The translations under genes were made by a program, and so were the position numbers. Shown piece after piece: positions 8,823 to 41,906 of a stretch of DNA of 41,906 nt; the stretch's first letter is position 1; every line of letters begins with the position of its first letter. Source of the stretch: Deltaproteobacteria bacterium (lineage in GTDB: Bacteria; UBA10199; SBBF01); contig JACPFC010000026.1 of assembly GCA_016183175.1 (NCBI GenBank), positions 1 through 41,906 on the forward strand, read 5' to 3'. The notes beneath the pieces are model-generated. The model ran no database searches. It was not told where the DNA came from and saw only the letters and a list, made by a program, of their open reading frames with translations.

Positions 8823-9596
8823 TTATTTTTCGAGGGCTGTTTTTTTGGCGAAGGCCAGCGTTGATTTTGCGGCCTGGTCGAGAAAGATCATATCCACTCC
8901 CAAAGCCAGGAAAGTGTGATCCTCCCGAAGGGCCTTTTGGATCGCCTCTTCGGTCGGATGGACCACGTGCAAACCATACCCGATTTTCCGTTGCCGCGCC
9001 GCGTTTTGCACCTTCTTTTTCGCCTCATCGAGATCGGGATGATGAAGCTCCCCTATGGGACCAAGGGATCCTGAAAGATCATAGGGCCCGACCAGCACCC
9101 CGTCGATTCCAGGCGTCCCGGCTATCGCCTCCGCATTTTCCGCCCCCGCTTTTGTTTCAATCATGGCGATGACAATCAGTTCTTTGTCGCTTCTCTCGCA
9201 ATATTCTTTGAAACCGGCCCCGTAGGCCTGGGCCCGTCCAAGACCGACTCCCCTTTTACCCCTGGGGGGATAATAGGCGGCGTCAACCGCCTTTCGCGCC
9301 TGTTCCGCAGATTCGATGGTCGGGACCATGATGCCGGCGGCGCCGGCGTCCAGGACATTTTTGGCAAGATTCGAATCATTGGAGGGAAGGCGGCAAATAG
9401 CCGGCAATCCGGCGAGGTCAATGATCCGGATAAGACGCGCCGCCTCTTCAACGCCCAAGGGAGCGTGTTCCATGTCGAGAACCAGCCATTCAAAGCCGGT
9501 GCGCGCCAGTATCTCCGCAGAGGCCTCGCACGGGAAGGTGATCCAGCAACCGAAGGAGAGGGACCGTGATTTCAGTTTCTGTTTAAAGATGTTCAT
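8823..9596 (-). CDS. HpcH/HpaI-family aldolase (pyruvate-type class II)
   Basis: This 257-residue TIM-barrel enzyme belongs to the HpcH/HpaI aldolase/citrate lyase family, which condenses or cleaves pyruvate with an aldehyde to give a 2-keto-3-deoxy acid. Key residues are visible: DMEHAPLG with the catalytic Asp/His pair (D41, H44), CRLP with the active-site Arg (R69), IAMIETKAG with metal ligand E147, and VGPYDLSGSLG with metal ligand D173. Length and motif spacing match HpaI/GarL-type enzymes. In a glycan locus with a KdsB-like cytidylyltransferase and a phosphatase, it may build the 2-keto-3-deoxy skeleton of a ulosonic acid sugar; that role is inference. Its start overlaps the upstream IMPase stop by four bases. 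Confidence 0.93.
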   Translation of the reverse strand: MNIFKQKLKSRSLSFGCWITFPCEASAEILARTGFEWLVLDMEHAPLGVEEAARLIRIIDLAGLPAICRLPSNDSNLAKNVLDAGAAGIMVPTIESAEQARKAVDAAYYPPRGKRGVGLGRAQAYGAGFKEYCERSDKELIVIAMIETKAGAENAEAIAGTPGIDGVLVGPYDLSGSLGPIGELHHPDLDEAKKKVQNAARQRKIGYGLHVVHPTEEAIQKALREDHTFLALGVDMIFLDQAAKSTLAFAKKTALEK

Positions 9597-10345
9597 ACCA
9601 GAAAGGCATTTCCCGCCCTGACACGCAGTAGTGCAGATTTTTGGCCCGGTTGGAAGTCAATTTTTCCGCCGGCCCCGACAACCAGCGCCAGGCCGGCCGC
9701 CACATCCCAAAGCGCGATATCGTTTTCCTGATACATATCCGCCCTTCCGGAGGCCACATAGGCAAGAGAAAGGGCGGCCGAGCCGAACAGACGGACCTTT
9801 TTATAAATCCTGATCTTGTGAACAAACTGCGTGAGTCCCTCTTCCGTAAAATCAGTCCCGACCGGGAAGCCGGTACAGAGGACCGCCTGCGATTTTTCCC
9901 TGACATTGCCGACGCAAATCGGTTGTCCATTGAGCCATGCCCCATGACCGGGAATGGCGCTAAACATCTCCGACTTGTTGAAATCATATACGATTCCTGA
10001 GAGGGGCGCCTGATCCTGCCACAAGGCGATCGAGATGCCGTATAAAGGGATTTGGCGGGAATAGTTCAGGCTCCCGTCCAGGGGATCGACGATCCAAAAG
10101 GGACCCTGGATCCGGGACGGACCGGTTTTCTCTTGAGCCTCTTCGGAATAGACGGGAAAGGGGCTTTCCTTCGAAAGTTGTTCGGTGATGAACATGTGCA
10201 GTTTGCGATCGGCCCCGATTTTCACATCCCTCTCCAGATCCGCGAGGACCCTTTGGTCCTCCGGGAATGACAGACGACCGGCCGCCTGTTGCGCCGTGGC
10301 CACGGCAAGGTTCAGATAAACGGAAATTTCGGATGAGGAAGGCAT
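9593..10345 (-). CDS. Inositol-monophosphatase-family sugar phosphatase
   Basis: This 250-residue Mg-dependent phosphatase has the IMPase superfamily residues in order: E68/E69 in YSEEAQ, WIVDPLDGSLNY (D87, D90, G91) as the metal and phosphate site, and ALWDVAAG with D214. Relatives include SuhB, CysQ and histidinol or sugar phosphatases. Between a D-2-hydroxyacid dehydrogenase and an aldolase it most likely dephosphorylates a sugar or sugar-acid intermediate, as KdsC does in KDO synthesis; this is inference. The ATG at 10345 is preferred. A TTG directly before it (10348) would add one residue. The upstream gene ends seven bases away. Confidence 0.9.
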   Translation of the reverse strand: MPSSSEISVYLNLAVATAQQAAGRLSFPEDQRVLADLERDVKIGADRKLHMFITEQLSKESPFPVYSEEAQEKTGPSRIQGPFWIVDPLDGSLNYSRQIPLYGISIALWQDQAPLSGIVYDFNKSEMFSAIPGHGAWLNGQPICVGNVREKSQAVLCTGFPVGTDFTEEGLTQFVHKIRIYKKVRLFGSAALSLAYVASGRADMYQENDIALWDVAAGLALVVGAGGKIDFQPGQKSALLRVRAGNAFLV

Positions 10346-10352
10346 CAAGGGA

Positions 10353-16516: not shown

Positions 16517-17239
16517 TTATTCTCCCCCCGCCGCTGTCAGGGTTGAACCCGCAATGTAGCCGCTTTTTTCGGCGATCAGGAAGAGTATCGCATGGGCGAT
16601 CTCGTCCGGCTCCGCCATCCGTTTGAGGGGAATCAGATTGATCCGTTCCTCCAGATTCTTTTTTGGAACGGAGGTGTGCATCTTGGTGTTTGTCACTCCG
16701 GCGCGCAGGGAATTCACGGTGATGTGATAAGGAGATCCGGCGCGTTGCAGGGTCCGGGTCAGCGCCTCCAGGGCCGCCTTGGAAATGGCGTAGTGGGCCG
16801 TTTGCGAGCCGCCCCCGAATTTGATGCCGATGCTGGAGATGTTGATAATCCGGCCCCAGCGCCGTTCCATCATTCCCGGCAGGACCCTTTGCGCCAAAAG
16901 GAACGGGACCTTCAGATTGACGCGCAGGACATCGTCAAGGGCCTTTTCCGTGAGGGAGACAAGGGGGGCCGGATCCGGAATGACGGCGGCATTGTTGATC
17001 AGGATGTCGATCCCATGGCCGATCTTTTCAACCTCTCTCCAGAGCTCGGCGGCGCTCCCGGGCGCCAGAAAATCCTTCCGGATCAAAAAAAGGCGCTCCG
17101 GATGCTCTTCCTTTTGTTGAAGGAGTTCCGGCGAGGAACTATGGTAATGAGCGATCACCCGATAACCTTCTTTAAGAAGTTGCCGGACCGAAGCGAGTCC
17201 GATTCCCGAACCCGCGCCCGTAATGAGCACCGTTTTCAT
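16517..17239 (-). CDS. Short-chain dehydrogenase/reductase (SDR)
   Basis: This classical 240-residue SDR has the NAD(P)-binding motif TGAGSGIG (residues 7-14), the NNAA structural motif near 82, a catalytic Ser in INISSIG near 135, and the Y-x-x-x-K pair Y150/K154 in HYAISKAAL. It would reduce a keto group or oxidise an alcohol, possibly on a nucleotide sugar or a fatty acyl intermediate. The ATG overlaps the stop of the upstream radical SAM/SPASM gene by four bases. The preference for NADH or NADPH and the substrate are not clear. Confidence 0.92.
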   Translation of the reverse strand: MKTVLITGAGSGIGLASVRQLLKEGYRVIAHYHSSSPELLQQKEEHPERLFLIRKDFLAPGSAAELWREVEKIGHGIDILINNAAVIPDPAPLVSLTEKALDDVLRVNLKVPFLLAQRVLPGMMERRWGRIINISSIGIKFGGGSQTAHYAISKAALEALTRTLQRAGSPYHITVNSLRAGVTNTKMHTSVPKKNLEERINLIPLKRMAEPDEIAHAILFLIAEKSGYIAGSTLTAAGGE

Positions 17240-18132
17240 TTTTGGCGGTTATGGAAATGATCCCAGGCGAGGTAATTTTCTTCACCCATGATCGTGCCGA
17301 TGACATCACATTTGTTGCAGGGATTAAAACTGCGGTCGCTCTTGCCGAGGGTTTCCCGAATCACTTCAAGGCGGCGGCTGCGCCAAAGATCCCAAAAAGA
17401 CGACCGGGTCAGATTGCCGACGACAACGGACTTCGACCAGTCGTGTGTGCAGAGGAGCATGTTGCCGTTATGGTCTATGAGAGAGAGATAGTGGGGGTAA
17501 AAGCAGGGATGCGCCAGGGGAAGGGGGGTCCTTTTATCTTCTTCCGATTTGTACTCTTCGATATCAGCCAGCCCCGCCCGGTTTGAAAAAGTAATGCCCA
17601 TATTCCCGTTTTCCCTATAGCGGCGTCGCAGAATGAACTGTTCATCCCGCAAACGGCAGGCCTCTTTCAGACGCAGGAATTTTTCTATTTGATGGGGGCC
17701 GTCATACATACTGACGCTCAAAAGGTCGAGGCCGGCGGCAAAGATTGAATGGAGGCGCTCCCCGGTCAAACGATCGCCGTTGGTAACGACTTCGACGCCT
17801 GCCCTCACATGGCGTTTGGCCGTGGAGATCAGCTCCTCCAGTTTCTTGTGAAGGAGCGGTTCACTGAAAGCCGAAAAGACAATCCGCGAGTCAAAATCGA
17901 TCTCGGCCAGATCCCTCATGATCTTTTCAAAAAGGGGGACTTCCAGAAATTCGTTGGTATTTGGGAACACTTGGGGATCGGAACGGGGGCAGAAACCGCA
18001 TGTCCTGTTGCAGAGGCCCGTCAGATTGAACTCAACGATGGCGGGCTTGGGAAAGCCATCCACCGTTTTCACGTTTTTCCTGACGATCTCTTTCTTGCGG
18101 TCAATATGCGGATCGAGAAAACGTTCCATCAT
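17236..18132 (-). CDS. Radical SAM/SPASM-like protein
   Basis: The 298-residue product carries the radical SAM cluster motif CNRTCGFC (C41, C45, C48) directly after the strand AIVEFNLTGL. Its C-terminal region has further cysteines in PCFYPHY, LLCTHDW and NPCNKC, in the spacing of a SPASM or twitch auxiliary-cluster domain, with the usual GN-L-x-x-S-F-x-D-L-W motif between them. SPASM enzymes include peptide modifiers but also aminosugar dehydrogenases such as BtrN-like proteins. In this locus a carbohydrate or lipid substrate is likelier than a peptide, as no precursor peptide is present. It starts at the double ATG 18132/18129, overlapping the upstream stop. Confidence 0.9.
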   Translation of the reverse strand: MMERFLDPHIDRKKEIVRKNVKTVDGFPKPAIVEFNLTGLCNRTCGFCPRSDPQVFPNTNEFLEVPLFEKIMRDLAEIDFDSRIVFSAFSEPLLHKKLEELISTAKRHVRAGVEVVTNGDRLTGERLHSIFAAGLDLLSVSMYDGPHQIEKFLRLKEACRLRDEQFILRRRYRENGNMGITFSNRAGLADIEEYKSEEDKRTPLPLAHPCFYPHYLSLIDHNGNMLLCTHDWSKSVVVGNLTRSSFWDLWRSRRLEVIRETLGKSDRSFNPCNKCDVIGTIMGEENYLAWDHFHNRQK

Positions 18133-25371: not shown

Positions 25372-26349
25372 TTATTCTAAAGATGCCTTTCGTACAACTT
25401 GTACCATGCGGGCTTCATCGGGGTAATACTCCTTCTCCAGAGGGGCGCTCATCGGCGTATGGCTGTCCGGGAAGCAGATTCTCTGCGGGTTGGCGAGCAA
25501 TTTGTCGCCGAGCCGTTCCGAGACCAGAGCGATGATTTCCGCCGCGACACTGACCGATCTCCAGGCCGGGTCGGCGACCACCAACCTTTTCGTCTTCGAC
25601 ACAGACTCACAAACGGTGCCGTCGTCCAAGGGAGAAAGCGTCCTCAAATCAACGACCTCGACGTCAATGGATTCCGATGCAAGCTGGTCCGCAGCCCGGA
25701 GCGCCATTGGGACCATCGACCCGATGGCAACGAGAGTGACATCCTTTCCCCTCCGCCTCACGTGGGCATGACCGAATCGCACACGGTAGGGCGCCTCCGG
25801 GACATCTTCCGTCATGCTGTAGAGCGATCGGTGTTCGATAATCATGACGGGATCCTCGCCAAAGATGCTTTCGAGCAACAGTCCTTTGGCGTCGTAAGCG
25901 GTTGCCGGGACGGCAACCTTCAGGCCCGGAAGATGGGCGAACCAGGCATGGAGACTTTTGGAATGTTGCGGACCCTGTCCCCACCCCTTGCCGACGATGG
26001 CACGGATGGTGACGGGCAGATTTGAATGTCCGTTGGATTTAAAGCGCATGAGTGACAACCAATTCACAATGGCATCCAGCGAGTACATCATGAAATCGAT
26101 GCGCTGGTGGACAATGACCGGACGCATCCCGACCAGAGCCGCGCCAATGGCCGCCGAGGTCATCAACCCCTCGGAGACCGGGAAATCCTGAACCCGCTCG
26201 GGCCCAAAACGTTCGACCAAACCGGTTGTTGTTCCGAAAACTCCCGATTTGTAGTCAACGAGCTGACCGAGCACCATGACATCGGGGCTTAGCTCCATCG
26301 CCTGAGTCAGGGCCTGATTGATCGCTTTACCGAAGGTTTGTGGAGGCAT
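25372..26349 (-). CDS. TPP-dependent dehydrogenase/transketolase E1 beta subunit
   Basis: This 325-residue protein matches the beta subunit of branched-chain/pyruvate E1 enzymes and split transketolases. VQDFPVSEGLMTSAAIGAALVG contains the conserved Glu that activates thiamine pyrophosphate, and VPATAYDAKGLLLESI and HRSLY are family segments. The C-terminal half has VVDLRTLSPLDDGTV and KTKRLVVADPAW, the transketolase C-domain. It pairs with the E1 alpha gene immediately upstream (five-base gap). No lipoyl E2 or E3 is nearby, so the pair more likely works as a carboligase or a two-carbon-transferring enzyme on a sugar than as a standard dehydrogenase; this is inference. Confidence 0.92.
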   Translation of the reverse strand: MPPQTFGKAINQALTQAMELSPDVMVLGQLVDYKSGVFGTTTGLVERFGPERVQDFPVSEGLMTSAAIGAALVGMRPVIVHQRIDFMMYSLDAIVNWLSLMRFKSNGHSNLPVTIRAIVGKGWGQGPQHSKSLHAWFAHLPGLKVAVPATAYDAKGLLLESIFGEDPVMIIEHRSLYSMTEDVPEAPYRVRFGHAHVRRRGKDVTLVAIGSMVPMALRAADQLASESIDVEVVDLRTLSPLDDGTVCESVSKTKRLVVADPAWRSVSVAAEIIALVSERLGDKLLANPQRICFPDSHTPMSAPLEKEYYPDEARMVQVVRKASLE

Positions 26350-26354
26350 TTTAA

Positions 26355-27470
26355 TTAATAAGGTCCCGGAATTGTGTCGGCCTGATTCTGATTAAATTCC
26401 TTTAATTCACAATCCTTCAGAAGTTGATCCGCAAGCGGGCTTCCCCGGCTGTAATTGAGTTTTGACCATTCGGCATTTCCGGGAAATGGGCTCTTCTTTG
26501 CAAATTCAAAGGATGCCGCAATCTCGCTATTGATCTTCTTAAGGATTTTCTCCTTCTCGGGGGCCGACAAGAGATTCTGTTCAACCATCCTCTCTTCGAG
26601 AAGGGAGATCGGACAATTTTGTTGCCAAAAATCGAATTCTTCCTTCGGGCGGTAACCCACGTAGCTGTCATCCTCCGGACCGACATGGCTGTTCATCCGG
26701 TAGGTAAAAGCCTCCAAAAAATAGGGGCCGCGGCCAGCGCGCGCCCCTTCGACCATCTCCCTGAGCATGGAGGTGCAGGCCATCACGTCGTTGCCGAAGA
26801 CTGTCCGGGCGGTGACGCCAAAGGTAGCCACCCGCTCACTGATATTTTCACTGGCCATCCGTTTGAATTGCGGGGAATAGGTGGAGTAGCGATTGTTTTC
26901 GCAGACGAAAACAATCGGCAGTTTGTGAAGGGCGGCGTAATTCAGGCCCTCCCAAAAGACTCCTTCGTCTGAGGCGCCGTCCCCGAAACCGGCCACCGCA
27001 ACATGCTTCTTCTTCTGCCGCTGGAAGCCCAAAGCGGCGCCGACCGCCAACGCGGTTGCCCCGGAAAGAATTGCGCCGCTGCAAAAATTGACCGACGGCA
27101 TGGAGAGATCCTGAGAACCGGCCAGTCCGCCGCTTGCGCCGGTGGCCTTGCCGTACATCTCGGCAAAGAGGGAATTCATCGGCCCCCCCTTTGCCAGATA
27201 GAACCCGTGGGTTCGATGATGGCTGAAAAGATAGTCTTCAGGTTTTATAACCACGGAGAGGGCCGCCGGAACGGCCTCCTGCCCGATACAGAAATGAATG
27301 GGGCATTTCATTTCATCGGCGGGATGATATTCCGCGATGAGGGCCTCCTCGCACCGTCGAAGGCGAAGCATGAAACGATGCAGGTTCTTCACAACCCCCG
27401 GATCGGCGTCTTTGAGGGAGAGCTCGCGATAGCGGCCCATTTTCAAAATTGTTTCGTGATTCATCGTCAT
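26355..27470 (-). CDS. TPP-dependent dehydrogenase/transketolase E1 alpha subunit
   Basis: This 371-residue protein has the thiamine-pyrophosphate motif GDGASDEG starting at residue 163 and ending at ENN (about 191-193), with the usual 27-30 residue spacing of GDG-Xn-NN. The preceding HFCIGQEAVPAA, YLFSHHRTHGFYLAKG and GSQDLS segments are characteristic of E1 alpha of pyruvate, branched-chain and acetoin dehydrogenases. The C-terminal 40 residues (SPLADQLLKDCELKEFNQN) are not typical. The ATG at 27470 follows AAGGA by nine bases. With the E1 beta downstream it would form an alpha2beta2 enzyme. There is no E2/E3 or lipoylation gene in the window. Confidence 0.92.
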   Translation of the reverse strand: MTMNHETILKMGRYRELSLKDADPGVVKNLHRFMLRLRRCEEALIAEYHPADEMKCPIHFCIGQEAVPAALSVVIKPEDYLFSHHRTHGFYLAKGGPMNSLFAEMYGKATGASGGLAGSQDLSMPSVNFCSGAILSGATALAVGAALGFQRQKKKHVAVAGFGDGASDEGVFWEGLNYAALHKLPIVFVCENNRYSTYSPQFKRMASENISERVATFGVTARTVFGNDVMACTSMLREMVEGARAGRGPYFLEAFTYRMNSHVGPEDDSYVGYRPKEEFDFWQQNCPISLLEERMVEQNLLSAPEKEKILKKINSEIAASFEFAKKSPFPGNAEWSKLNYSRGSPLADQLLKDCELKEFNQNQADTIPGPY

Positions 27471-27485: not shown

Positions 27486-28040
27486 TTAATTCAACTGAAC
27501 AGTACGGTATTCTTGACGTTCGATTGATTGAATCGTTGTAACGGCGACTTTAATGTCCTTGACCCGGTGGGTGACCTTAACATCCTTATTGTAGCTACCG
27601 TCAATCAAAATCGTCCTGCAACCCGCGGCCTTACCGGCTTCCATGTCCTTCCAATTGTCGCCTATGAGATAGGATCTGTCCAAACCGACCGCCCACCGAT
27701 GAGCCAGATCCAGCAACATCCCCGGTTTGGGTTTTCGGCAGAGACAGTGGTGACTGTCGTCGTGCGGACATATGAGGATTTCCCGGATGGGGAGGGAATC
27801 CATGATTTTTTTGTTCATCTTCTCGACCATGACAGCCTTCACGCGCCCTTTGGCGATATCAGGCTGGTTGGAGACGACGAAGAGGAGATACCCCATCTGG
27901 GACAATTCTCTGAGCGGTTTCTCGATCCCGGGAATGAATTTGAACTCCTCCAGGCTCCAGGGCGCAATCGGCTTCGAACTCCCCCGGAATACCACCTCGT
28001 TAATGACCCCGTCCCGGTCAAGAAATACGGCCCTGTTCAT
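27486..28040 (-). CDS. gmhB: D-glycero-D-manno-heptose 1,7-bisphosphate 7-phosphatase-like (GmhB family)
   Basis: This 184-residue HAD-superfamily phosphatase matches GmhB, which removes the 7-phosphate in nucleotide-heptose synthesis. The catalytic motif FLDRDGVIN stands at residues 6-14 with both Asp residues. VVSNQPDIAKG is motif II, and CPHDDSHHCLCRKPKPGML contains the zinc-binding Cys/His loop typical of GmhB and histidinol-phosphatases and the motif III Lys. YLIGDNWKDMEAGKAAG is motif IV. It directly follows the SDR (TAAATG). Together with the HldE-like fusion and the SIS isomerase it supports a nucleotide-heptose-type pathway in this operon. Confidence 0.92.
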   Translation of the reverse strand: MNRAVFLDRDGVINEVVFRGSSKPIAPWSLEEFKFIPGIEKPLRELSQMGYLLFVVSNQPDIAKGRVKAVMVEKMNKKIMDSLPIREILICPHDDSHHCLCRKPKPGMLLDLAHRWAVGLDRSYLIGDNWKDMEAGKAAGCRTILIDGSYNKDVKVTHRVKDIKVAVTTIQSIERQEYRTVQLN

Positions 28041-29797: not shown

Positions 29798-31339
29798 TTA
29801 TTCAAACTTTTGATTTTTGACGGCGTCAATTTTCTTTTCGATGGCCTCAACGGAAATGGGATTATTTCCCTCAATTTCGCACGCGACGGCCGCGGCGAGA
29901 TTGCCCAGGATGGAACTGATCAGGATATTTTTGGAGGATTTATAGGCGAGCGTGCTCGCGGCCAGCATCGCATCGCCGGCCCCCAGCCCGTCCACCATGT
30001 CCTGGACGAAACTGTCGATAAAGAAAAAGTCCCGGGGACTTTCACTCAAGTCCCGATAGACCAGAATCCCTTTTTCACCCAGCTTGAGAATCAGATATTT
30101 TGCCTCCGAGCGTTTATAAAGCTCCGCGCCAAGGGGTCGGATGCCGGTATCCTGATCACCCAGCGAAAAACGGGCTTCTTTTTCATTGGGGAAGATCAGG
30201 TCAAACTGTTTGAAGTCCAGAATGTTGCCCCATCGGTTGCTGACCTGGCTGTCGGCCACCATGATCGAGGCGGGATTTCTCACGTTTGTCAGGGCCTTGA
30301 TCGTTTCTTTCTGGAAAATGCCGTGACGGAAATCGCTGAAGATGGTGACTTCCGCGTCGACACCGGTCACATGATGACACAACTCCCCCAATATCTTCTC
30401 GGAGACGACGCTGTTGTCGACCGTATCGACCTGAAGCAACTTGTAGCCGTCGGCCCAAAACCTCTCCTTCTGGGTTGTCGGTCGGGAGTGATCGATGATG
30501 GCGTTGGTCTTGATGCTCCACTCTCTCAGACTCCCTAAAACGTAATCTTTGAGGGGGTCATCGCCGATGACGGTGGTGAGGGTCACGTCCGCCCCCAGGC
30601 TTTTCAGATGTTTGGCCACGATCCCGGCCCCCCCCACAAAACTTTTGGCCGATTCGAGTTTGATGCTGAACGTCGGCGTCTTGGTCGTCGGCCCCAAAAC
30701 CGAACAGTAGGAATACTTGTCGACGATCGTGTCCCCCACGACGTGGACCTTGATGTCCCTGAAACTGTGCAGGGTGTCGGTTAGATCTTTGAAGCCGATC
30801 TTTTCCGCATCCATGAGGGCCAAAAGCCTGTCGATGGAAATCCTGGGCCTGTGGATGGTTAAAAGATGCGTTGAAGAGTAGACAAAATCTCCCGGACTGA
30901 AGATGACCTCTCCTCCGTAAGAGGAGACGGCCTGAATCTCTTCTTTCGTCTTGGGATGTATGCCGTCCTTGCCGTAATCGAAACCCTTGATGAAATAATC
31001 CGGCTTGATCATGAGAATGTTGTCTATGGGGGTTTCATGGTAGTCGATGACGACGTAGTTCACCATTTCGAGAGCCGCCAAATTTCTCGCGCGCAAATCC
31101 TGGGGCACGTAGGGCCTGTCCTGTCCCTTATAAATATATTTGTCCGCAGTGACGCTGGCCACCAGAATGGCCCCCTTTTCTTTCGCATAAAAGAGGTGGC
31201 GGATATGGCCCGGGTGAACAATGTCAAAAGTCCCATGGCACATCACGACCGATTTTTTGCGGGGAGGGGATCCCAATATCTTGACAAGCTCTTCGGCGGT
31301 TTTGATCTTATCGGCGATCCTGTTTTTGTTTGGTTTCAT
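29798..31339 (-). CDS. Bifunctional nucleotidyltransferase-PfkB kinase, HldE-like with swapped domains
   Basis: This 513-residue protein joins two domains known from HldE/RfaE, which makes heptose 1,7-bisphosphate and then ADP-heptose. Residues about 30-165 are a cytidylyltransferase-type domain with CHGTFDIVHPGHIRHL (residues 34-49) and IKPDYFIKGFDYGKD. Residues about 195-505 are a ribokinase-type (PfkB) domain with VVGDTIVDKY, FVGGAGIVAKHLKSLGA (about 234-250, close to the PGGAANVA motif of HldE) and GLGAGDAMLA (451-460) as the catalytic anion-hole motif. In E. coli HldE the kinase is N-terminal and the transferase C-terminal, so the order here is reversed. It is surrounded by epimerases, a GmhB-like phosphatase and an SIS isomerase. 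Confidence 0.9.
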   Translation of the reverse strand: MKPNKNRIADKIKTAEELVKILGSPPRKKSVVMCHGTFDIVHPGHIRHLFYAKEKGAILVASVTADKYIYKGQDRPYVPQDLRARNLAALEMVNYVVIDYHETPIDNILMIKPDYFIKGFDYGKDGIHPKTKEEIQAVSSYGGEVIFSPGDFVYSSTHLLTIHRPRISIDRLLALMDAEKIGFKDLTDTLHSFRDIKVHVVGDTIVDKYSYCSVLGPTTKTPTFSIKLESAKSFVGGAGIVAKHLKSLGADVTLTTVIGDDPLKDYVLGSLREWSIKTNAIIDHSRPTTQKERFWADGYKLLQVDTVDNSVVSEKILGELCHHVTGVDAEVTIFSDFRHGIFQKETIKALTNVRNPASIMVADSQVSNRWGNILDFKQFDLIFPNEKEARFSLGDQDTGIRPLGAELYKRSEAKYLILKLGEKGILVYRDLSESPRDFFFIDSFVQDMVDGLGAGDAMLAASTLAYKSSKNILISSILGNLAAAVACEIEGNNPISVEAIEKKIDAVKNQKFE

Positions 31340-32346: not shown

Positions 32347-33341
32347 GTTAATCGGGACGCCTGAATGGCCTTGACGTTGTAATAACGGATGTTTTCCATC
32401 GAATTGGGGATTTTCCCGTTGCGAAAAGCCCCGCAAAGATCCACGACCGCTTCCTCCAGGGTATGTTTCGGCGCCCAGCCCAGCTCCGCCAAAATCTTTT
32501 TGGAAGAGACGTGGTAGGAGCGGAGATCGTTGGAGGGGGCGGTTTCAACGGCAATGGGGTTTAAATGAGGCATCTCCCGGGAGACGATTTTTTGAACCAT
32601 CCGGGCGAGTTCAGCCACCGTGAAGTTTTCATAGCCGGCGTTGAAGATTTTCCCCGCAATTTTATCGGCAGGCATCTCCAAAAGCTCCCCATAAAGATCG
32701 GAGATATCCTCGATATGAATATTCGGTCGTTTTTGACTCCCCCCCAGGACAAGGATTTTACGGTTGGTGACGGCATGATTGGCAAGAATGTTGACCGTCA
32801 AATCGAGACGAAGGCGCGGGGAATAACCGCAGACCGTCGCGGGGCGGATGACGACGGTGGTGAAGTCGGGCGACTGGTATTTGAGAAGATGAGGCTCGCA
32901 CATCCCCTTGTATTTGTTGTAGTCGGTGAGCGGGACAAGGGGATGATCCTCCGTGACCTCCAGGGCGTCGCTGATACCGTAAACGCTGGATGTGGAGGCA
33001 TAAATGAAACGTTTGGCCCCGCTTTCTTTCGCCATACGGACCATCGGTTCAAAACACTCATAGTTGATGGAGCGGCTTAAGTCGGGATTCAGTTCAAAAC
33101 TGGGATCGTTTGAAATGCAGGCCAGGTGAATGACCGAATCCACTCCATACAGCGCCTCTTGGAGGAGTGACCGGTTTCGGATATCTCCTTCAACGCATTC
33201 CAAAGACCGGTGGGTCGGCAAGACGTCTTTCCCAAAGAGAAAAAGATCGATCACACGAACCTGATATCCCTGCCGAAGGAGTTTGGGGACCAGCACGGCC
33301 CCCACATAACCGGCCCCGCCTGTTACAAGGACTCTTTTCAT
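32343..33341 (-). CDS. NAD-dependent nucleotide-sugar epimerase/dehydratase (second extended SDR)
   Basis: This 332-residue protein starts with KRVLVTGGAGYVGAVL and has VIHLACISNDPSF near 75, YASTSSVYGI near 117 and a Tyr/Lys pair in DYNKYKGMCE near 142. RPATVCGYSPRLRLDL and RPNIHIEDI belong to the family region that binds the sugar nucleotide. It resembles the CDP-paratose/GDP-sugar epimerase-like branch. The start ATG 33341 overlaps the transaldolase stop by four bases; the earlier in-frame ATG at 33476 lies within that gene and is unlikely. Two neighbouring epimerases suggest two stereochemical changes or two different sugars. Confidence 0.92.
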   Translation of the reverse strand: MKRVLVTGGAGYVGAVLVPKLLRQGYQVRVIDLFLFGKDVLPTHRSLECVEGDIRNRSLLQEALYGVDSVIHLACISNDPSFELNPDLSRSINYECFEPMVRMAKESGAKRFIYASTSSVYGISDALEVTEDHPLVPLTDYNKYKGMCEPHLLKYQSPDFTTVVIRPATVCGYSPRLRLDLTVNILANHAVTNRKILVLGGSQKRPNIHIEDISDLYGELLEMPADKIAGKIFNAGYENFTVAELARMVQKIVSREMPHLNPIAVETAPSNDLRSYHVSSKKILAELGWAPKHTLEEAVVDLCGAFRNGKIPNSMENIRYYNVKAIQASRLT

Positions 33342-34030
33342 TTTGATTGAACGGCCTCGAATTTCGCCCCGTCCTTCAAAAACATCTGGACCGTCTCCTT
33401 GGAATAGGGATGAACAAGCATTCCTTCGAGGAGACCCGGCGTCGCCGTTACGATGTGGGCGCCCGCATCGAGCCATTCAATAACGTTCAGAACCTCGCGG
33501 GTTGAACCCACGATGATTTGGGCCTTGAGCCTGAAGGCGTCGAGGAGTTTGCGAAGTCGGGAAATCTCCCCGCAGGCATCGTAGCCCATGTTATTCACGC
33601 GGCCCCCGAAAATCGAGACATAGGTTGCGCCCGCCATGGCCGCCAGAAAGCACTGTTGCGCGCTCATCATGGCGGTCACGTTGATCCGGATATTACGCTT
33701 CTCTTCCAGCTCATGAATCAGTTTGAGATTATCCAGCTCGCCGTTCGGACCGTGGATGGTGATTTTGACGTTTATGTTGGGGGCCCACTGGCTGAAATCC
33801 AGCGCCTGTTCGAGCATGCGTCCCGGGTCATTATTGGTGACCTCGACGGAGAGGGGGAGGGGGGAGATCAGTTTCGCAATTTCGATGCAACTGCGTTTCA
33901 CACCGGCCAACCCGCCCGTGACCCCCTCTTTGGCAAGAATGGTCGGATTTGTCGTAACGCCGCGAACGATGCCCATGGCGTGATATTTCCTGATTTCTCC
34001 CAGATTGCCGGTGTCCAGAAAAATAGCCAT
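33338..34030 (-). CDS. Transaldolase/fructose-6-phosphate aldolase-like protein (TalC/FSA family)
   Basis: This 230-residue TIM-barrel enzyme begins with IFLDTGNLGEIRKY and RGVTTNPTILAKEG, the characteristic start of the short transaldolase family, and has NVKITI at residues 87-92 where K89 should form the Schiff base. INVTAMMSAQQCFLAAMAGATYVSIFGGRVNNMG is the next conserved region, and IIVGSTRE (with the Ser/Arg phosphate contact) and HIVTATPGLLEGML close the barrel. It could supply sedoheptulose 7-phosphate, or a different aldol product, to the sugar pathway. AAAGGA stands six bases upstream of the ATG. Confidence 0.92.
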   Translation of the reverse strand: MAIFLDTGNLGEIRKYHAMGIVRGVTTNPTILAKEGVTGGLAGVKRSCIEIAKLISPLPLSVEVTNNDPGRMLEQALDFSQWAPNINVKITIHGPNGELDNLKLIHELEEKRNIRINVTAMMSAQQCFLAAMAGATYVSIFGGRVNNMGYDACGEISRLRKLLDAFRLKAQIIVGSTREVLNVIEWLDAGAHIVTATPGLLEGMLVHPYSKETVQMFLKDGAKFEAVQSK

Positions 34031-34049: not shown

Positions 34050-34646
34050 TTATCGGGTGCTTTCCCACTTCATTTCGTTCTGTTTGAGACGCGGGTGTGA
34101 GACCAGCAGATGCCAGATCACCGCCTGAAATCCCTCGGTGTGTGCGGTGACTGTTTCGGCGTTGACCGGGGGGATAATCACGCAACTGTCAGCCACCTGC
34201 GCGGTATACCCCCCGTCCCGCCCCACAACCCCGCAAATTTTTGCGCCCATTTCTTTCGCATAACGGAGTGAATTGACAATGTTGACGCTGATATTTCTTT
34301 TGATGTCGCCCCCCCCGACCGAGAAAACGAAAATGACGTCGTTTTTCTTGAGTTTGTTGACTCTTAGCCAATTCAAATAGGATGTGTCCCAACCTTCATC
34401 ATTGACGCGCGCGGTAAGTTCGGAAACATTATCCGTCGGGGTATAGGATTCAATGCCGCAGATCTTCCTGAAATCGTTTACGGCATGAGAGGCGTGGCCT
34501 GCGCCGCCCCCAACGCCCAGAAAGAAAATTCGCCCCCCCTGCTTTCGGGCCTCCGCCAACAGATCAACCATCCGCGTTATCCGGCCCCTGTCGAGTTTGC
34601 TCACGATCTCTTTGATCTCCTCAATGTAGTTCTCGATAAATTCCAT
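34050..34646 (-). CDS. SIS-domain phosphosugar isomerase (second GmhA-like)
   Basis: This 198-residue protein is an SIS-fold sugar isomerase. The first phosphate loop is FLGVGGGAGHASHAVNDF near residues 41-58, corresponding to GNGGSAxxxxH in GmhA but with GVGGGAG instead. VFSVGGGDIKRNISVNI near 107 is the second loop (Ser-x-Gly-Gly-Gly instead of SxSGxS). The C-terminal NAETVTAHTEGFQAVIWHLL has the Glu-His region used for catalysis. It differs from the 11.3 kb SIS protein in both loops, so it may recognise another aldose/ketose phosphate. It is placed directly upstream of the transaldolase-like gene. Confidence 0.87.
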   Translation of the reverse strand: MEFIENYIEEIKEIVSKLDRGRITRMVDLLAEARKQGGRIFFLGVGGGAGHASHAVNDFRKICGIESYTPTDNVSELTARVNDEGWDTSYLNWLRVNKLKKNDVIFVFSVGGGDIKRNISVNIVNSLRYAKEMGAKICGVVGRDGGYTAQVADSCVIIPPVNAETVTAHTEGFQAVIWHLLVSHPRLKQNEMKWESTR

Positions 34647-34683: not shown

Positions 34684-36159
34684 TTAAATAGTATTGCCGC
34701 GTACAGGGATGATTTCCATGCCGAGTTTCCCGGCGTCATCCTTCCAAGGCGTCGTTTGTTCAACCAACCAGTGGGTGCACCCGTAACGCTTCAGTTCCCT
34801 CCCGACCTCTATCATGTCTTCCGTCCCTGGTTCCTTCGGGGCCGCCCCCATCACCATGAGAAGAGTGCGCGCCGGAGGGCAATGGTCGCGAAGAAGTCTT
34901 TCGAAGGAACGAATAACGGCATCCGTCTCCGTGTCGGCTTTCACCCCCACGAGGAGGCTGTCGCAATTGAGTTCTTCAAAGGCCCGGACGACAATTCTCT
35001 CCGCCTGGCGATCGGCCGGTTTCGCAGTGACATAAGCCGCCACCTTCCGCCATTTTTTCTGCGCGGCGATCTCCGCGAATTGTTCCGGGGCCAGCTCGTA
35101 GGGATGCTTTCGAATCTCCCGGCGCGCGGGTGTTTCTTTGTCTCCCCATAACGGCGCCTGCGACACAGGTTTTCCCGTCATCGCATTCTGGTCTATCAGG
35201 GAACGAATGAAAGCCACGCACGCAACCGGGTATCGGCCAATGGCGGTTTCAGCGGCCAGAACAAGGCCATCCGCTCCATCCAGGAGCGTGTTGACCACGT
35301 CGTTGACCTCCGCCCGCGTCGGAAGCGGTTCGTTCACCATCGATTCCAGAAGATTGGTGGCTACATAGACGGGGGTTCCTGCCCGATTGGCCCGCGCAAT
35401 CACCCATTTCTGGATCCTTGGAATGAATTCGACGGGAACCTCTCGGGAAAGGTCGCCGCGGTCGATGAGGATGGCATCGGCGGCCTTGAGAATGGCGTCC
35501 AGATCTTCCAGGGCCCGGCGATTTTCCACCTTGGCGATAATTTTGGACCCGGGAGGCGCCATACTCCGAAGCGCCTCAACGTCGGCGCGACAACCGGCAA
35601 AGGAAAGGGCATAGTCATGTATTCCCAGTGCCACGCCCAGACGTATCGCGCGACGGTCGAAGGGCGTGAAGGGTTCCAGGGATATTTCCCGGTCCACGGC
35701 GACCCCTTTGTTCGATCCGATCTTTCCTCCCATCAAGACCCGGGCGCGGCAATGTCCCGCTTCGGCCATGATCACCTGCAGGATGACGGAATTGAAATCC
35801 ACACTGACCAGATCGCCCGGCCGCAATTGATTGACCGCGCCTGCGGGGTAAAGAGCCGCTTTTTGCGGGGTCCCGCGCATTTCTTCTCCCACCAGTTCAA
35901 TTTCGGAATACTCCTCCAAAACACAACTGCCTCCCCGAATCGCCCCCGTTCTTATTTGCGCCCCTTGCGTGTCAAAACATATAGGGACCCGCGCATGATC
36001 CCTGATCATTTTTACGGCCGGCGCGATCGCGTCATCGGCGGTGTGGGAAAGATTGATTCTGAACAAATCGGCGCCCAGCTCTTCCAGGCGTCTGATGACA
36101 AGGGGGTTAAGGGAGGCCGGTCCCAGCGTGCAAAGAATTTTACGGGTTCGACTGTTCAT
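34684..36159 (-). CDS. Pyruvate-kinase-like protein fused to a C-terminal ATP-sulfurylase-like domain
   Basis: This 491-residue protein begins as a pyruvate kinase: RKILCTLGPAS (6-16), LFRINLSHT (32-40), CFDTQGAQIRTG (61-72, usually DTKGPEIRTG), ALSFAGCRADV, IIAKVEN (207-213 with the catalytic Lys), LIDRGDLS (usually MVARGDLG), YVATNLLESM and LAAETAIGRYP (usually GETAxGxYP). Most catalytic residues survive. The normal pyruvate-kinase C domain is absent. In its place residues about 345-475 follow the pattern of ATP sulfurylase: YELAPEQFAEI, WRKVAAYVTAKPADRQAER (where sulfurylase has FQTRNPxHRAH) and GCTHWLV (compare GxTHFIVGRDH). The nucleotide-binding histidines are missing. The ATG overlaps the Wzx stop by four bases. 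Both its reaction and its role in this glycan are unknown. Confidence 0.88.
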   Translation of the reverse strand: MNSRTRKILCTLGPASLNPLVIRRLEELGADLFRINLSHTADDAIAPAVKMIRDHARVPICFDTQGAQIRTGAIRGGSCVLEEYSEIELVGEEMRGTPQKAALYPAGAVNQLRPGDLVSVDFNSVILQVIMAEAGHCRARVLMGGKIGSNKGVAVDREISLEPFTPFDRRAIRLGVALGIHDYALSFAGCRADVEALRSMAPPGSKIIAKVENRRALEDLDAILKAADAILIDRGDLSREVPVEFIPRIQKWVIARANRAGTPVYVATNLLESMVNEPLPTRAEVNDVVNTLLDGADGLVLAAETAIGRYPVACVAFIRSLIDQNAMTGKPVSQAPLWGDKETPARREIRKHPYELAPEQFAEIAAQKKWRKVAAYVTAKPADRQAERIVVRAFEELNCDSLLVGVKADTETDAVIRSFERLLRDHCPPARTLLMVMGAAPKEPGTEDMIEVGRELKRYGCTHWLVEQTTPWKDDAGKLGMEIIPVRGNTI

Positions 36160-37646
36160 AGGGATCGGGATCCATGGTCTCCCGCCCAATTTAATTTTCC
36201 GGGCAACAATCCCCTCAATAAATTGAAATTTTCCACCGTGATGACCCTTAGTTGAACCCCGAGATAAACATAAATCCCCGCCAGGGCCGTTTTGAGCGTC
36301 ACCCGAACCGGATACTCGGCCGATGTCACGTTCAAGATCAGGGCCGCGAAGGAAGCGGCAAAAAATATCAGGAATATTGCGGCCATTTTTCCATACTCCC
36401 ATCGAATGGGGTAATAACGCTGGGCCACCAGAAGGCTGATTGTCCCTGAAATAATGCCTGACGCCAAAAGGGCCCATGCCGCCCCGATGGCGCCCCACTT
36501 CATGATGAAGGGGATATTCAGGGCTATCGTAAGGCCCGTGGTGACAAAGGACAAGAGTGTCGTCATGTAGGTTTTTTTCGTAAAGAGAAACCGGGGTCCC
36601 GTGAGTTTCCCGAAGAAGAGGAAGCCGTAGTACATGGAAAGAACGATGACGATGCGGATCGCCCCATGATAGGCAGGAGGGGTCAAGAGCGTTATCATTT
36701 CTTCGGAGAATAAGGAAACCAGCAGGGCCGGACCGAGGCAGACAAAGGCAAAGGGGGTTATGTACCGTCCGATCGACTCGCCGCCCTTTTCCCCCGGATC
36801 AAACATTTTCCGGTAGAATCGGGGCGTGAAGACATTCTCGACAGCCGTCATGAAGGTGAAAACCGTGGAGGCGATCTTCTGGCCGATATTATAAACGCCG
36901 ACGCCTCCAATGGTCCCCATGAGGCCGATCATATATTTGTCGAACTGGTTATTCACAATTCCAAGGAAAAGCCGGGGGGTCAGCGGGAGGCTGATTTTCA
37001 GTGATTCCCGGAGCATTGTTTTATTGAAAGAAATCGGAAGGAGCCTGAAAAACTTCCATCCCAGAACGAAAAAGATGATTATGCCGGATAAAAGTTGCGA
37101 CCAGACGAGACCCGTAACTCCCACCCGGAGATAGACCACCATCAGGAAGGAGAAGAGGAACCAGAGCCCGCTTTCGGCAATTGTATACCGGGTGAAGTCG
37201 CCGGCCTTCTCGCTGTTTTTGAAATAAGTGAGATAATGGGTTTTCAGGGTTGCCGTCCCAGTCGCGCAAAAGGCCCAGAACAAAAGATCGGCATGAAGGC
37301 GGGAACCCATAATCCATTCGGCAAGTTGCGGTTTGAAGAGCCAGGTCAGTGTGATTCCGCACCCCAGGGCGATGATTGAGAAGAGCAGAATTGAATAGAG
37401 AAGCCGGGCCGCCTCTTCTTTGCCCCGGTATTGGAAAAAATTGCGCTCATAGGCGAGGTTTAGCCCCAAATTGACGAGTCCCGAGGCCGGAAGGGCGTAG
37501 ATTTGCGCAAGGGCCAGGTGACCATAGTCTTCCGTCGTCAGGATGCGGGTGAAGATGGGGAGTGAAAGGAGGGGAAAGAGGCTCGCAACGGCGACCGGAA
37601 GGAGGTAGAGGAAACTGTTCCGGATTGTTTTTTTCCTGGTTTCCAC
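36156..37646 (-). CDS. Wzx-like polysaccharide flippase (MATE/MVF superfamily)
   Basis: This 496-residue protein has about 12-14 hydrophobic helices spread over its whole length and begins with the family-typical FLYLLPVAVASLFPLLSLPIFTRILTTEDYG (residues about 12-42), closely resembling RfbX/Wzx proteins that flip undecaprenyl-pyrophosphate-linked repeat units. The central loop VYNIGQKIAST and the C-terminal hydrophobic pairs fit the 14-helix plan. It begins with GTG at 37646, nine bases after the upstream stop. The gene provides the export step for a Wzy-type pathway, consistent with the polymerase/ligase-like gene at 5.4 kb. Confidence 0.92.
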   Translation of the reverse strand: METRKKTIRNSFLYLLPVAVASLFPLLSLPIFTRILTTEDYGHLALAQIYALPASGLVNLGLNLAYERNFFQYRGKEEAARLLYSILLFSIIALGCGITLTWLFKPQLAEWIMGSRLHADLLFWAFCATGTATLKTHYLTYFKNSEKAGDFTRYTIAESGLWFLFSFLMVVYLRVGVTGLVWSQLLSGIIIFFVLGWKFFRLLPISFNKTMLRESLKISLPLTPRLFLGIVNNQFDKYMIGLMGTIGGVGVYNIGQKIASTVFTFMTAVENVFTPRFYRKMFDPGEKGGESIGRYITPFAFVCLGPALLVSLFSEEMITLLTPPAYHGAIRIVIVLSMYYGFLFFGKLTGPRFLFTKKTYMTTLLSFVTTGLTIALNIPFIMKWGAIGAAWALLASGIISGTISLLVAQRYYPIRWEYGKMAAIFLIFFAASFAALILNVTSAEYPVRVTLKTALAGIYVYLGVQLRVITVENFNLLRGLLPGKLNWAGDHGSRSL

Positions 37647-39608: not shown

Positions 39609-41045
39609 GATGCAGGATGGATTATCGGGATCGTGTTCTTAAGTCTTTCACCGGGCGCCGGCGCGACTTCCGTGATCCGGGGCCCATACCTGCAACAACT
39701 CACTCCCACATCCGTTGTCATCGTTTGGCGCACCGATTCGGCTTCGGACAGCCTCGTTCACTATGGCACGGATCCGGGCAACCTTTCCGGAACGGTGGAA
39801 AAAGATCCTGCCGTGACACAGCATGAGGTTCAAATCGCCGATCTTTGGCCAGAGACGAGATATTACTATTCAATCGGCGCCTCGGACAAAATATTGGCCG
39901 GTGGAAATTCCGACTATTTCTTTACGACGGCTCCCCCTGTCGGAAAACGCGCCGCCGTTCGCATTTGGGTCCTCGGGGATTCGGGAACAGGAGCTTGTCC
40001 CGCGTGCTGGAGCGGCAAGGATGACGCGCCCGCCGTTCGCGATGCCATGCTGAATGAAATGTCGAAAAGCGGAGATATTCATCTTTGGCTCATGCTGGGT
40101 GACAATGCCTACATGGGGGGCACGGACGAGGAATACGAAGCCTCCGTCTTCGAGATGTATCCGACTTTCTTGAGAAACTACCCCCTCTGGCCGACTCTCG
40201 GAAACCATGATGGATATCTGGCGGATTCAGAGGACCAGACCGGAGCCTATTTCGAGGCATTTGTATTGCCGACCCTTGGAGAGGCAGGCGGCGTTGCATC
40301 CGGAACCGAGGACTACTATTCATTTGATTACGCCAACATTCATTTTATCTGCCTGAATTCCATGGCCGGTCCATTGACAAAAGATTCCATGCTCGCCTGG
40401 TTGGGGGCGGATCTTGCCGAGACACAACAGGATTGGCTGATTGCCTACTGGCATCATCCTCCCTACTCAAAGGGAACAATCGACTCCGACTCGGAAACAA
40501 CATCAACATGGATACGGCAGGAGGTTCTCCCCATCCTTGAAAGCGGAGGCGTCGATCTTGTCTTGAATGGGCACAGCCACGTCTACGAGCGCTCTTTCCT
40601 TGTCAACGGCTATTATGGCGCATCAAGCACCCTGTCAGCCGGGATGGTGCGCAGTACCGGCATCGAAAGCGATATTACAAATAGTGAGAATGCTCTTTTC
40701 CAGAAAGCGGGAGGTCCGAATCAGGGGACGGTGTACGTCGTTGCGGGAACCAGTGGAGTCGTTATTGCCGAGAATCATGATTCCCATCCCGTGATGGCGG
40801 TAACCAGCTTTGCTTTGGGGTCGTTGATTCTCGATGTCAACGGCGACCGCCTGGACATGATGTTCCTCCGCGAAACCGGGGGAGTCGATGACTCTTTTAC
40901 CATCTTGAAAAGCGGCGAATCCAAACTCCCGGCCGCGGCGGGATGCGCTTTAAAACGGCCAAAGAGAGGGGTTGATCTCACAAGAGAGGGCTTTTGTCGA
41001 GGAGGGCCCTGTAGACCTCGGGGAAGAGAAAGCACCGCTCAATGA
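39531..41045 (+). CDS. Purple-acid-phosphatase-like metallophosphoesterase, 5' end uncertain
   Basis: This is the only rightward gene. Its core is a calcineurin-like phosphoesterase: LGDSGTG, LGDNAYMGG, LGNHDG, WHHPPYSKG and NGHSHVYERS are the five metal-ligand blocks in order. An N-terminal Fn3-like domain (SVIRGPYLQQLTPTSVVIVWRT and following) is typical of purple acid phosphatases. A hydrophobic stretch ending in GAGA (39618-39656) should be the signal peptide. The start is unclear: ATG 39531 and GTG 39552 are in frame but overlap the 5' end of the divergent transferase gene, and neither has a well-spaced ribosome-binding site. The 3' end overlaps the sulfotransferase by 68 bases. It may be cut or rearranged at its ends. 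Confidence 0.8.
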   Translation: MICYERVVQRPKIFKKNDGFQRLSPHDAGWIIGIVFLSLSPGAGATSVIRGPYLQQLTPTSVVIVWRTDSASDSLVHYGTDPGNLSGTVEKDPAVTQHEVQIADLWPETRYYYSIGASDKILAGGNSDYFFTTAPPVGKRAAVRIWVLGDSGTGACPACWSGKDDAPAVRDAMLNEMSKSGDIHLWLMLGDNAYMGGTDEEYEASVFEMYPTFLRNYPLWPTLGNHDGYLADSEDQTGAYFEAFVLPTLGEAGGVASGTEDYYSFDYANIHFICLNSMAGPLTKDSMLAWLGADLAETQQDWLIAYWHHPPYSKGTIDSDSETTSTWIRQEVLPILESGGVDLVLNGHSHVYERSFLVNGYYGASSTLSAGMVRSTGIESDITNSENALFQKAGGPNQGTVYVVAGTSGVVIAENHDSHPVMAVTSFALGSLILDVNGDRLDMMFLRETGGVDDSFTILKSGESKLPAAAGCALKRPKRGVDLTREGFCRGGPCRPRGRESTAQ

Positions 41046-41906
41046 GTTTAGCCTCATCGGTTCGATGGTCCAGACAGCTTTGACGCAACAGTTCCAGTCC
41101 AAAGTCGACCTCGGCATTCCGGTTGTCGGTGCGCCATCCCTGGCATTCCCGGCTGTCCCTGACATGGCATCGGTAGGCCTCTTCATAAAAACCGTTGTTC
41201 TGAAGACCTTCGGCAAGGGTATATCCGGCCATCGCCAGATCCGGGGCGGTCACGAACTCGATCAATCGCAGGATGTCCCGATCCAGTGATCTCTTCCAGC
41301 GATCCACCGTGTCCTGGAATATGCCCTGTTGGGGCACTCCCTCCTGATTACTGTTGGGAAGCCAGGCCCCACCGTCCGGCGCGACGAAATTCTTCGTATC
41401 AATCATCCCGGACCGGTAGTCGATCTCCAGGAAATCACACAGGCGACGTGTTGCCTTTTCGGGATCCTTGACCAGTTGTTCATAGGTCAGGATATGGAGA
41501 CGTCCCTTGAATAGATCCATCCCCTGATAATGACGCGCGAAGGCGACCTGTTTGCGCCAGCAACGGGCGAACGAAAGGATCAGGGCGACAAGCGACCTGT
41601 CCTTGGGATATTGATAGAGGGGGTTGGTGTGGACCGCCTGCATGAGACGCAGATGCGAGGAAATACAGGCGCGGACATCGCGCAAAATCACCATGAAGCG
41701 GGCCTCGGGAAAACTCCTTGCGATCGGCGCAAAGAACTCGATGGCCCAATTATCATTGAAGCCGACCCAGGCCGCCTCGGGGCGCTGATGGGCAAGGCGA
41801 ATCATCCGGAGACCTGAATCCAGAAGTTGTCGGTACGTCTCTCCCTTCAGGTGGTCAATCAGCGGGATTAGGCGAGGTGATGAGAAACTCATCCGCTTCA
41901 CCTGGG
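40978..41906 (-). CDS. Sulfotransferase-family protein, 5' end beyond window
   Basis: The visible part matches the Sulfotransfer_1/3 superfamily. The 3'-phosphate-binding segment FMVILRDVRACISSHLRL (R-D-x-R-x5-S pattern) is followed by ILTYEQLVKDPEKATRRLCDFLEI, the strongly conserved region after it. The N-terminal 5'-PSB loop (RSGTT type) is missing, and the frame stays open to the right edge with a possible GTG at 41901 that is probably internal, so the gene is partial here. A substrate such as a glycan hydroxyl, with PAPS as donor, is expected for the family. It lies convergent to and overlaps the phosphatase, and it may belong to a neighbouring unit rather than the polysaccharide operon. 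Confidence 0.82.
   Translation of the reverse strand, partial: QVKRMSFSSPRLIPLIDHLKGETYRQLLDSGLRMIRLAHQRPEAAWVGFNDNWAIEFFAPIARSFPEARFMVILRDVRACISSHLRLMQAVHTNPLYQYPKDRSLVALILSFARCWRKQVAFARHYQGMDLFKGRLHILTYEQLVKDPEKATRRLCDFLEIDYRSGMIDTKNFVAPDGGAWLPNSNQEGVPQQGIFQDTVDRWKRSLDRDILRLIEFVTAPDLAMAGYTLAEGLQNNGFYEEAYRCHVRDSRECQGWRTDNRNAEVDFGLELLRQSCLDHRTDEAKLIERCFLFPEVYRALLDKSPLL

Follow-up and report, generated by a model that had tools for sequence, protein, structure and literature searches.

The N-terminal part of the protein studied here is related to pyruvate kinase (PK; PF00224; EC 2.7.1.40), with which it shares the barrel, the B domain, and all core catalytic residues. Canonical PKs, however, carry a PF02887 C domain and lie outside the clade of PK-like proteins described below. 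The C-terminal part is homologous, by sequence and predicted fold, to ATP sulfurylase (ATPS) of the Sat/MET3 type (PF01747). It differs from these enzymes in being truncated and in lacking the PUA-like domain and the QXRN, HxxH, and GRD motifs, whereas intact members of its family have HXRN. PAPS synthases, which are fusions of ATPS and APS kinase, link the same two activities as this family does, in one chain at two Flavobacterium loci (L091 and L093). The family differs from PAPS synthases in adding a PK-like barrel in front and in having changed sulfate and APS contacts, and the copy studied here appears to lack both activities.

Two further systems are instructive. Structurally, the C domain is matched best by PDB 3cr8, a hexameric APS kinase from Thiobacillus denitrificans that includes an ATPS-like domain. 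The T. denitrificans protein joins this domain to APS kinase, whereas the protein studied here joins it to PK. The T. denitrificans ATPS-like domain is reportedly inactive yet structurally kept. In Campylobacter jejuni, Cj1415-Cj1418 make CDP-phosphoramidate 3'-phosphate (PMC11800397), and this capsule decoration pathway thus offers a precedent for the activity of an APS-kinase-family enzyme on a nucleotide conjugate that carries no sulfate. It is unlike the family described here in that it begins with a PPDK-type glutamine kinase, has a nucleotidyltransferase of the NTP_transf_3 type, and uses CTP as its nucleotide.

The window, by which we mean the whole 41,906-nucleotide stretch of deltaproteobacterial DNA analyzed (contig JACPFC010000026.1), encodes the protein studied here (Table 1).

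Table 1. Features of the PK-like gene and its surroundings in the window
Feature	Coordinates	Strand	Remarks
CDS, 491 aa, PK-like barrel plus degenerate ATP sulfurylase domain	34684..36159	-	starts MNSRTRKILC
PK-like (beta/alpha)8 barrel with B domain, residues 4-315	35215..36150	-	PF00224; model pLDDT mostly >90
Linker, residues 331-353	35101..35169	-	pLDDT <50 at residues 333-347; alignment with L040
Truncated ATP sulfurylase catalytic domain, residues 354-466	34762..35100	-	PF01747; lacks QXRN, HxxH, and GRD motif residues
Flippase (Wzx-like)	36156..37646	-	ORF; family name from the initial annotation and sequence reading
SIS-domain isomerase, next downstream	34050..34646	-	GmhA (D-sedoheptulose 7-phosphate isomerase) is the top match but falls below cut-off
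Small transaldolase/fructose-6-phosphate aldolase-like protein	33338..34030	-	
HldE-like protein, reversed order (nucleotidyltransferase, then PfkB kinase)	29798..31339	-	
GmhB-like heptose bisphosphate phosphatase	27486..28040	-	
Sulfotransferase-family protein (PF13469/PF00685)	40978..41906	-	cut at window end; continues in L126:1-402

A PK-like barrel joined to a predicted ATPS remnant

The PK-like gene and the flippase gene upstream of it share bases, the ATG of the former overlapping the TGA of the latter. GC content by codon position is uniform across the barrel (0.655/0.448/0.636) and the C domain (0.652/0.432/0.682), so the frame is coding throughout. The initial annotation had described the N-terminal part of this minus-strand gene product as PK-like with its catalytic residues kept. 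A Pfam search bears this out, with residues 4 to 315 matching PF00224 (E = 5.5e-67; 226.6 bits against a cut-off of 30), and in the alignment the PK catalytic Arg, Asn, Asp, Lys, Glu, Asp, and Thr are all present. The score against the NCBI equivalog model TIGR01064 (264.9) lies below the cut-off of 306.4.

The catalytic core is conserved across the 84 PK-like barrels aligned: R34, N36, D63, R70, K210, E212, D236, and T268 are kept in 83 or 84 of them (the remainder being gaps), K151 in 83, and S38 in 81. Around these residues the family has its own signatures. Canonical PKs have ARGDLG, DLxGPKIR, ATQMLESM, and LSGETA, where the PK-like family has DRGDLS, DTEGAQIR, ATNLLESM, and LAAETA; the window protein reads DTQGAQIR, DRGDLS, ATNLLESM, and LAAETA. 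Near the catalytic motifs, Asp233 (84/84) and Ser238 (83/84) occur only in the family and replace Ala and Gly of canonical PKs, and Ala302 (78/84) takes the place of Ser. In rabbit PK, the positions of the Ala (233) and the Ser (302) presumably lie near C3 of PEP. At the position that governs K+ dependence (position rule from PMC10338316), the PK-like protein has Gln, whereas PKs have Glu or Lys.

The C domain, residues 354 to 466, matches PF01747 (E = 3e-10; 40.3 bits against a cut-off of 24.3) over profile positions 3 to 119 of 212 only, which indicates that the ATPS part is truncated. The PK C domain, PF02887, is absent from the Pfam search of the window protein even at E ≤ 10. An AlphaFold2 model of the whole protein, built with 39 family members as input, has a mean pLDDT of 88.9 and a disordered linker at residues 333 to 347. 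In a Foldseek search with this model, full-length PKs align over both domains at about 15 to 16 Å rmsd, a result that misleads if taken alone because both types of C domain are alpha/beta. The C domain was therefore modeled on its own (mean pLDDT of 85.5), and Foldseek ranks 1 to 31 were then all solved ATP sulfurylases (E from 9.5e-9; TM of about 0.7 to 0.78), with no PK C domain among the matches listed. An ordinary PK C domain is rejected on the absence of PF02887 and on the predicted ATPS fold, and the earlier description of this domain as following ATPS is upheld.

The nucleotide-binding motifs had been called degenerate, and they are: in an alignment that includes 11 ATPSs, canonical ones or others taken for comparison, the window protein reads V, A, D, and A at the Q, R, H, and H positions, and gaps fall at the GRD positions. 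The pre-catalytic (PUA-like) domain of intact fusions is missing between residues 330 and 354. With its motifs lost and its fold predicted to be kept, the ATPS part appears to be catalytically dead in cis. The earlier idea of a PEP/pyruvate enzyme joined to a nucleotide-binding fold needs qualifying, as the C domain of this copy is such a fold by descent only, its active-site residues having been lost.

The locus and its genome

The GmhA-like, transaldolase-like, HldE-like, and GmhB-like proteins encoded near the PK-like gene suggest a heptose pathway. The initial annotation had assigned the protein to a sugar pathway rather than to glycolysis, pointing to the flippase, isomerase, and transaldolase next to it. 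The polysaccharide and heptose setting is confirmed, but the isomerase and the transaldolase appear to belong to a heptose-type pathway that shares the locus. A role as a sugar-phosphate enzyme is conceivable for the window protein, with nothing specific in its favor. Judged by gene content across the family, the relevant partners appear to be APS-kinase-like and sulfotransferase-family genes. The sulfotransferase-family gene of the window lies about 4.5 kb from the PK-like gene, and no APS-kinase-like gene was found in the window. The genome has two APS-kinase-family genes, one canonical and one of the Cj1415 type about 25 kb from the PK-like gene; a kinase with the partner signature of the family was not found in it.

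Several other genes deserve mention. By eye, the reversed HldE-like order recurs at L047 (4036-5622), beside a similar epimerase pair. A transketolase or E1 alpha-beta-like gene pair, also recognized by eye, occupies positions 25372 to 27470 of the polysaccharide cluster. The protein at 9593 to 10348 belongs to the inositol-monophosphatase family, matches CysQ below the cut-off, and could recycle PAP. Radical-SAM-type proteins that resemble each other by eye are encoded at 17236 to 18132 of the window and at L036 (7343-8299), both in polysaccharide clusters. Homologues of Cj1415-Cj1418, with a methyltransferase gene and a sulfotransferase-family gene beside them, occur on the same contig about 14 to 20 kb beyond the window (L126:13353-19539; about 55.2 to 61.3 kb on contig C26 of genome G000). 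This complete-looking set, of O-methyl-phosphoramidate type and in a non-Campylobacter genome, comprises a gamma-glutamyl-CDP-amidate hydrolase, a PRK05849 protein, an NTP transferase, a methyltransferase, and an APS-kinase-family enzyme.

A family spread over many phyla

A scan of GTDB genomes with two barrels as queries returned 106 relatives, of which 80 were kept. Their hosts include Mesorhizobium, Sinorhizobium, SAR11, Flavobacterium, CPR bacteria, Omnitrophota, Elusimicrobia, Chloroflexi, Thermoplasmata, and Micrarchaeota, among others. Most fused loci encode a PK plus full-length ATPS fusion of about 725 amino acids, often with an APS-kinase-like gene next after it, and SAR11 members consist of the barrel alone. 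G019, a genome of the same class, is the sole other clear carrier among the 46 genomes that searches at class level and at phylum level alike returned. In a polysaccharide cluster, G019 encodes a 724-amino-acid PK with a complete ATPS, and genes for an APS kinase and a sulfotransferase-family protein come next. In Flavobacterium, L091:10004-12781 and L093:10004-12781 each encode PK, ATPS, and APS kinase as a single chain of 925 amino acids, with a sulfotransferase-like gene directly upstream.

The PK-like barrels form one clade separate from canonical PKs (82 rows; SH-aLRT of 99%). Within it, the window barrel groups with the intact fusions L043 and L044 (support of 95%), and this nesting indicates that the decay of its ATPS is secondary. 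Degenerate ATPS domains sit on three separate branches (the window, L065, and L047), the decay having taken place at least three separate times. The window protein has the PK signature of the family and belongs to its clade; the HXRN motif of the ATPS is absent, with Val at the His position. L036 and L038 are long-branch, barrel-only proteins that fall outside the main clade, and their placement is unsure. The divergent barrel of L036 (9282-11869) lies in an operon with APS kinase and a Gln-type ATPS. Phage matches are stretches that resemble ordinary PK at 32 to 35% identity.

About 40 independent fusions have the same domain order, so an assembly chimera is rejected. The initial annotation knew of no described example of the fusion. 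We found no description in the full text of open PMC papers, and the PK-ATPS(-APSK) family is seemingly undescribed as well as widespread. A singleton architecture is rejected by the genome scan, in which the window protein is a decayed member of a family found in many phyla.

Changed contacts and conserved neighbors

The Gln of the ATPS motif contacts sulfate (PMC3779200). It is Gln in all 11 comparison ATPSs. Of 45 PK-linked ATPS domains, the 41 intact ones all have His instead, and the four exceptions are those of the window protein, L065, L047, and L083, the last of which is split. Such a Gln-to-His ATPS might nonetheless bind sulfate. The kinases adjoining PK-like genes are altered as well. 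In CysC of Mycobacterium tuberculosis, an Arg contacts sulfate and adenine, and a Phe stacks on adenine (PMC4373884). In 30 of 41 partner kinases this Arg is replaced by Ile or Val, and in 37 of 41 the Phe is replaced by Leu, Met, or Val; the canonical DRxxNI plus FTG pair is found in only one. Ten rhizobial-type partner kinases retain the Arg and differ elsewhere.

At least 32 of 84 loci have a sulfotransferase-family gene no more than 4 kb away, often abutting the PK-like gene, a count that stands without a matched control of other polysaccharide loci; the family identity was examined in ten examples. At L047 (16363-20649), an XRE-NTP transferase fusion, an XRE/cupin protein, a probable alcohol dehydrogenase, and a Cj1415-type kinase are encoded consecutively, a row that by eye resembles a set of genes for decoration with phosphonate or phosphoramidate.

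In SAR11, L096:9111-11002 encodes an APS-kinase-like protein, a 118-amino-acid NMNAT-like nucleotidyltransferase, and the PK-like protein with gaps of a few bases, and at L111 (5530-7259) and L120 a P-loop kinase fused to an NMNAT-like nucleotidyltransferase adjoins the PK-like gene. Among 25 SAR11 genomes with Pelagibacter-type barrel-only loci, all incomplete single-cell genomes, ATPS was found in none and a full-length CysD-type match in only one, so that 24 yielded no known sulfate-activating enzyme. The other CysD-type matches span 70 to 80 N-terminal positions in frames of about 520 amino acids and are probably GMP synthase. A long APS-kinase-family match is present in at least 11 of the 25.

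A proposed donor module and its alternatives

We favor, at slightly better than even confidence, the view that the window protein belongs to the PK-ATPS family as a secondarily reduced form and that this family, with APS-kinase-like and sulfotransferase-family proteins, forms a module that supplies a PAPS-like donor for surface polysaccharides. The PK-like barrel would catalyze phosphoryl transfer, the two partners being a nucleotide and a small phospho-2-oxy-acid, either PEP or a related compound. The resulting oxyanion would then be coupled to a nucleotide by an HxxH nucleotidyltransferase, which is the fused Gln-to-His ATPS or, in SAR11, the NMNAT-like enzyme; F420 biosynthesis (PMC6450877) provides a precedent for nucleotide addition to PEP. 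The 3'-OH would be phosphorylated by the APS-kinase-like enzyme, as in APS kinase and Cj1415, and the group would be moved onto a glycan by the sulfotransferase-family enzyme, whose gene is linked to the module. The window copy, whose place in the module we infer, is probably limited to the PK-like step, because its own nucleotidyltransferase seems to be dead and a search of its genome found no family-type partner for the 3'-phosphorylation; the ATPS remnant would serve as a structural module.

More specifically, we propose, tentatively and at somewhat less than even confidence, a new route to a PAPS analogue, in which a 3'-phosphonucleotide carries a phospho-hydroxy- or enol-acid, or another non-sulfate group, and serves to decorate the surface glycans of many phyla, SAR11 among them. 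This route would run through the PK-like barrel, a Gln-to-His ATPS or NMNAT-like enzyme, a 3'-kinase, and a sulfotransferase-family enzyme, the window enzyme having lost its built-in nucleotidyltransferase. A non-sulfate group is favored by the Gln-to-His change, the altered kinase pocket, and the swap to an NMNAT-like enzyme in SAR11, and the acceptor used by the family may well be something other than sulfate.

The main rival is ordinary sulfation coupled to an energy supply. Here the fused ATPS would make APS, the APS kinase would convert it to PAPS, and the barrel would regenerate ATP from PEP and ADP, pulling the unfavorable synthesis of APS; the window copy would be the ATP-regenerating barrel only, relying on chromosomal ATPS and APS kinase. 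Sulfotransferase-family enzymes are normal users of PAPS, and the adjoining position of their genes, together with the PK-like gene of L036 beside a Gln-type ATPS and an APS kinase, keeps an ordinary supply of PAPS alive as an explanation. It is also consistent with the full retention of PK catalytic residues, with the presence, on contig C21 of the host genome, of a canonical ATPS, a PAPS reductase, and an APS kinase apart from the window protein, and with the ATPS part of L040, which exceeds the NCBI sulfate adenylyltransferase cut-off (407.8 versus 387). We nevertheless consider ordinary sulfation somewhat unlikely, given that the sulfate-contacting Gln is invariably lost and the APS-contacting Arg and Phe are frequently lost in the partners, that SAR11 operons pair PK-like and kinase genes without known sulfate activation, and that D233 and A302, near the catalytic motifs, are absent from canonical PKs. 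A simpler scheme, in which the barrel is a stand-alone kinase for a sugar acid or a hydroxy acid that is built straight into the glycan without nucleotide activation, would suit a window copy that has neither nucleotidyltransferase motifs nor a matching 3'-kinase, as well as the existence of barrel-only family members and of sugar-acid and heptose genes nearby. Many barrel-only members also adjoin a kinase or nucleotidyltransferase gene, however, and we regard this scheme as improbable.

The remaining readings concern the window copy itself. The truncated, motif-less ATPS part and a host genome without a kinase of the partner signature could mean that the entire gene is a relic turning into a pseudogene. 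This is very improbable in view of its intact frame, translational overlap, untouched barrel active site, uniform codon-position GC, and well-folding predicted C domain, and of similar ATPS loss with the frame kept in two other lineages. It is very unlikely that the protein is the glycolytic PK of the organism, even though it retains the catalytic residues and is the only PF00224 protein in a 96%-complete genome. It falls in a polysaccharide-linked clade outside canonical PKs, has no allosteric C domain, and is encoded by a gene that overlaps a flippase gene; moreover, PK seems to be dispensable in this taxonomic family, whose two other genomes yield no match to PK at all.

Implications

Database labels such as "pyruvate kinase" or "sulfate adenylyltransferase" for members of this family would mislead models of glycolysis and sulfur assimilation in many uncultured lineages and in SAR11. 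If the PAPS-like donor does carry a non-sulfate group, some "sulfotransferases" of polysaccharide clusters may transfer another group. The single protein of the window is a reduced variant, and the bigger surprise is the widespread PK-ATPS-APSK family to which it belongs.
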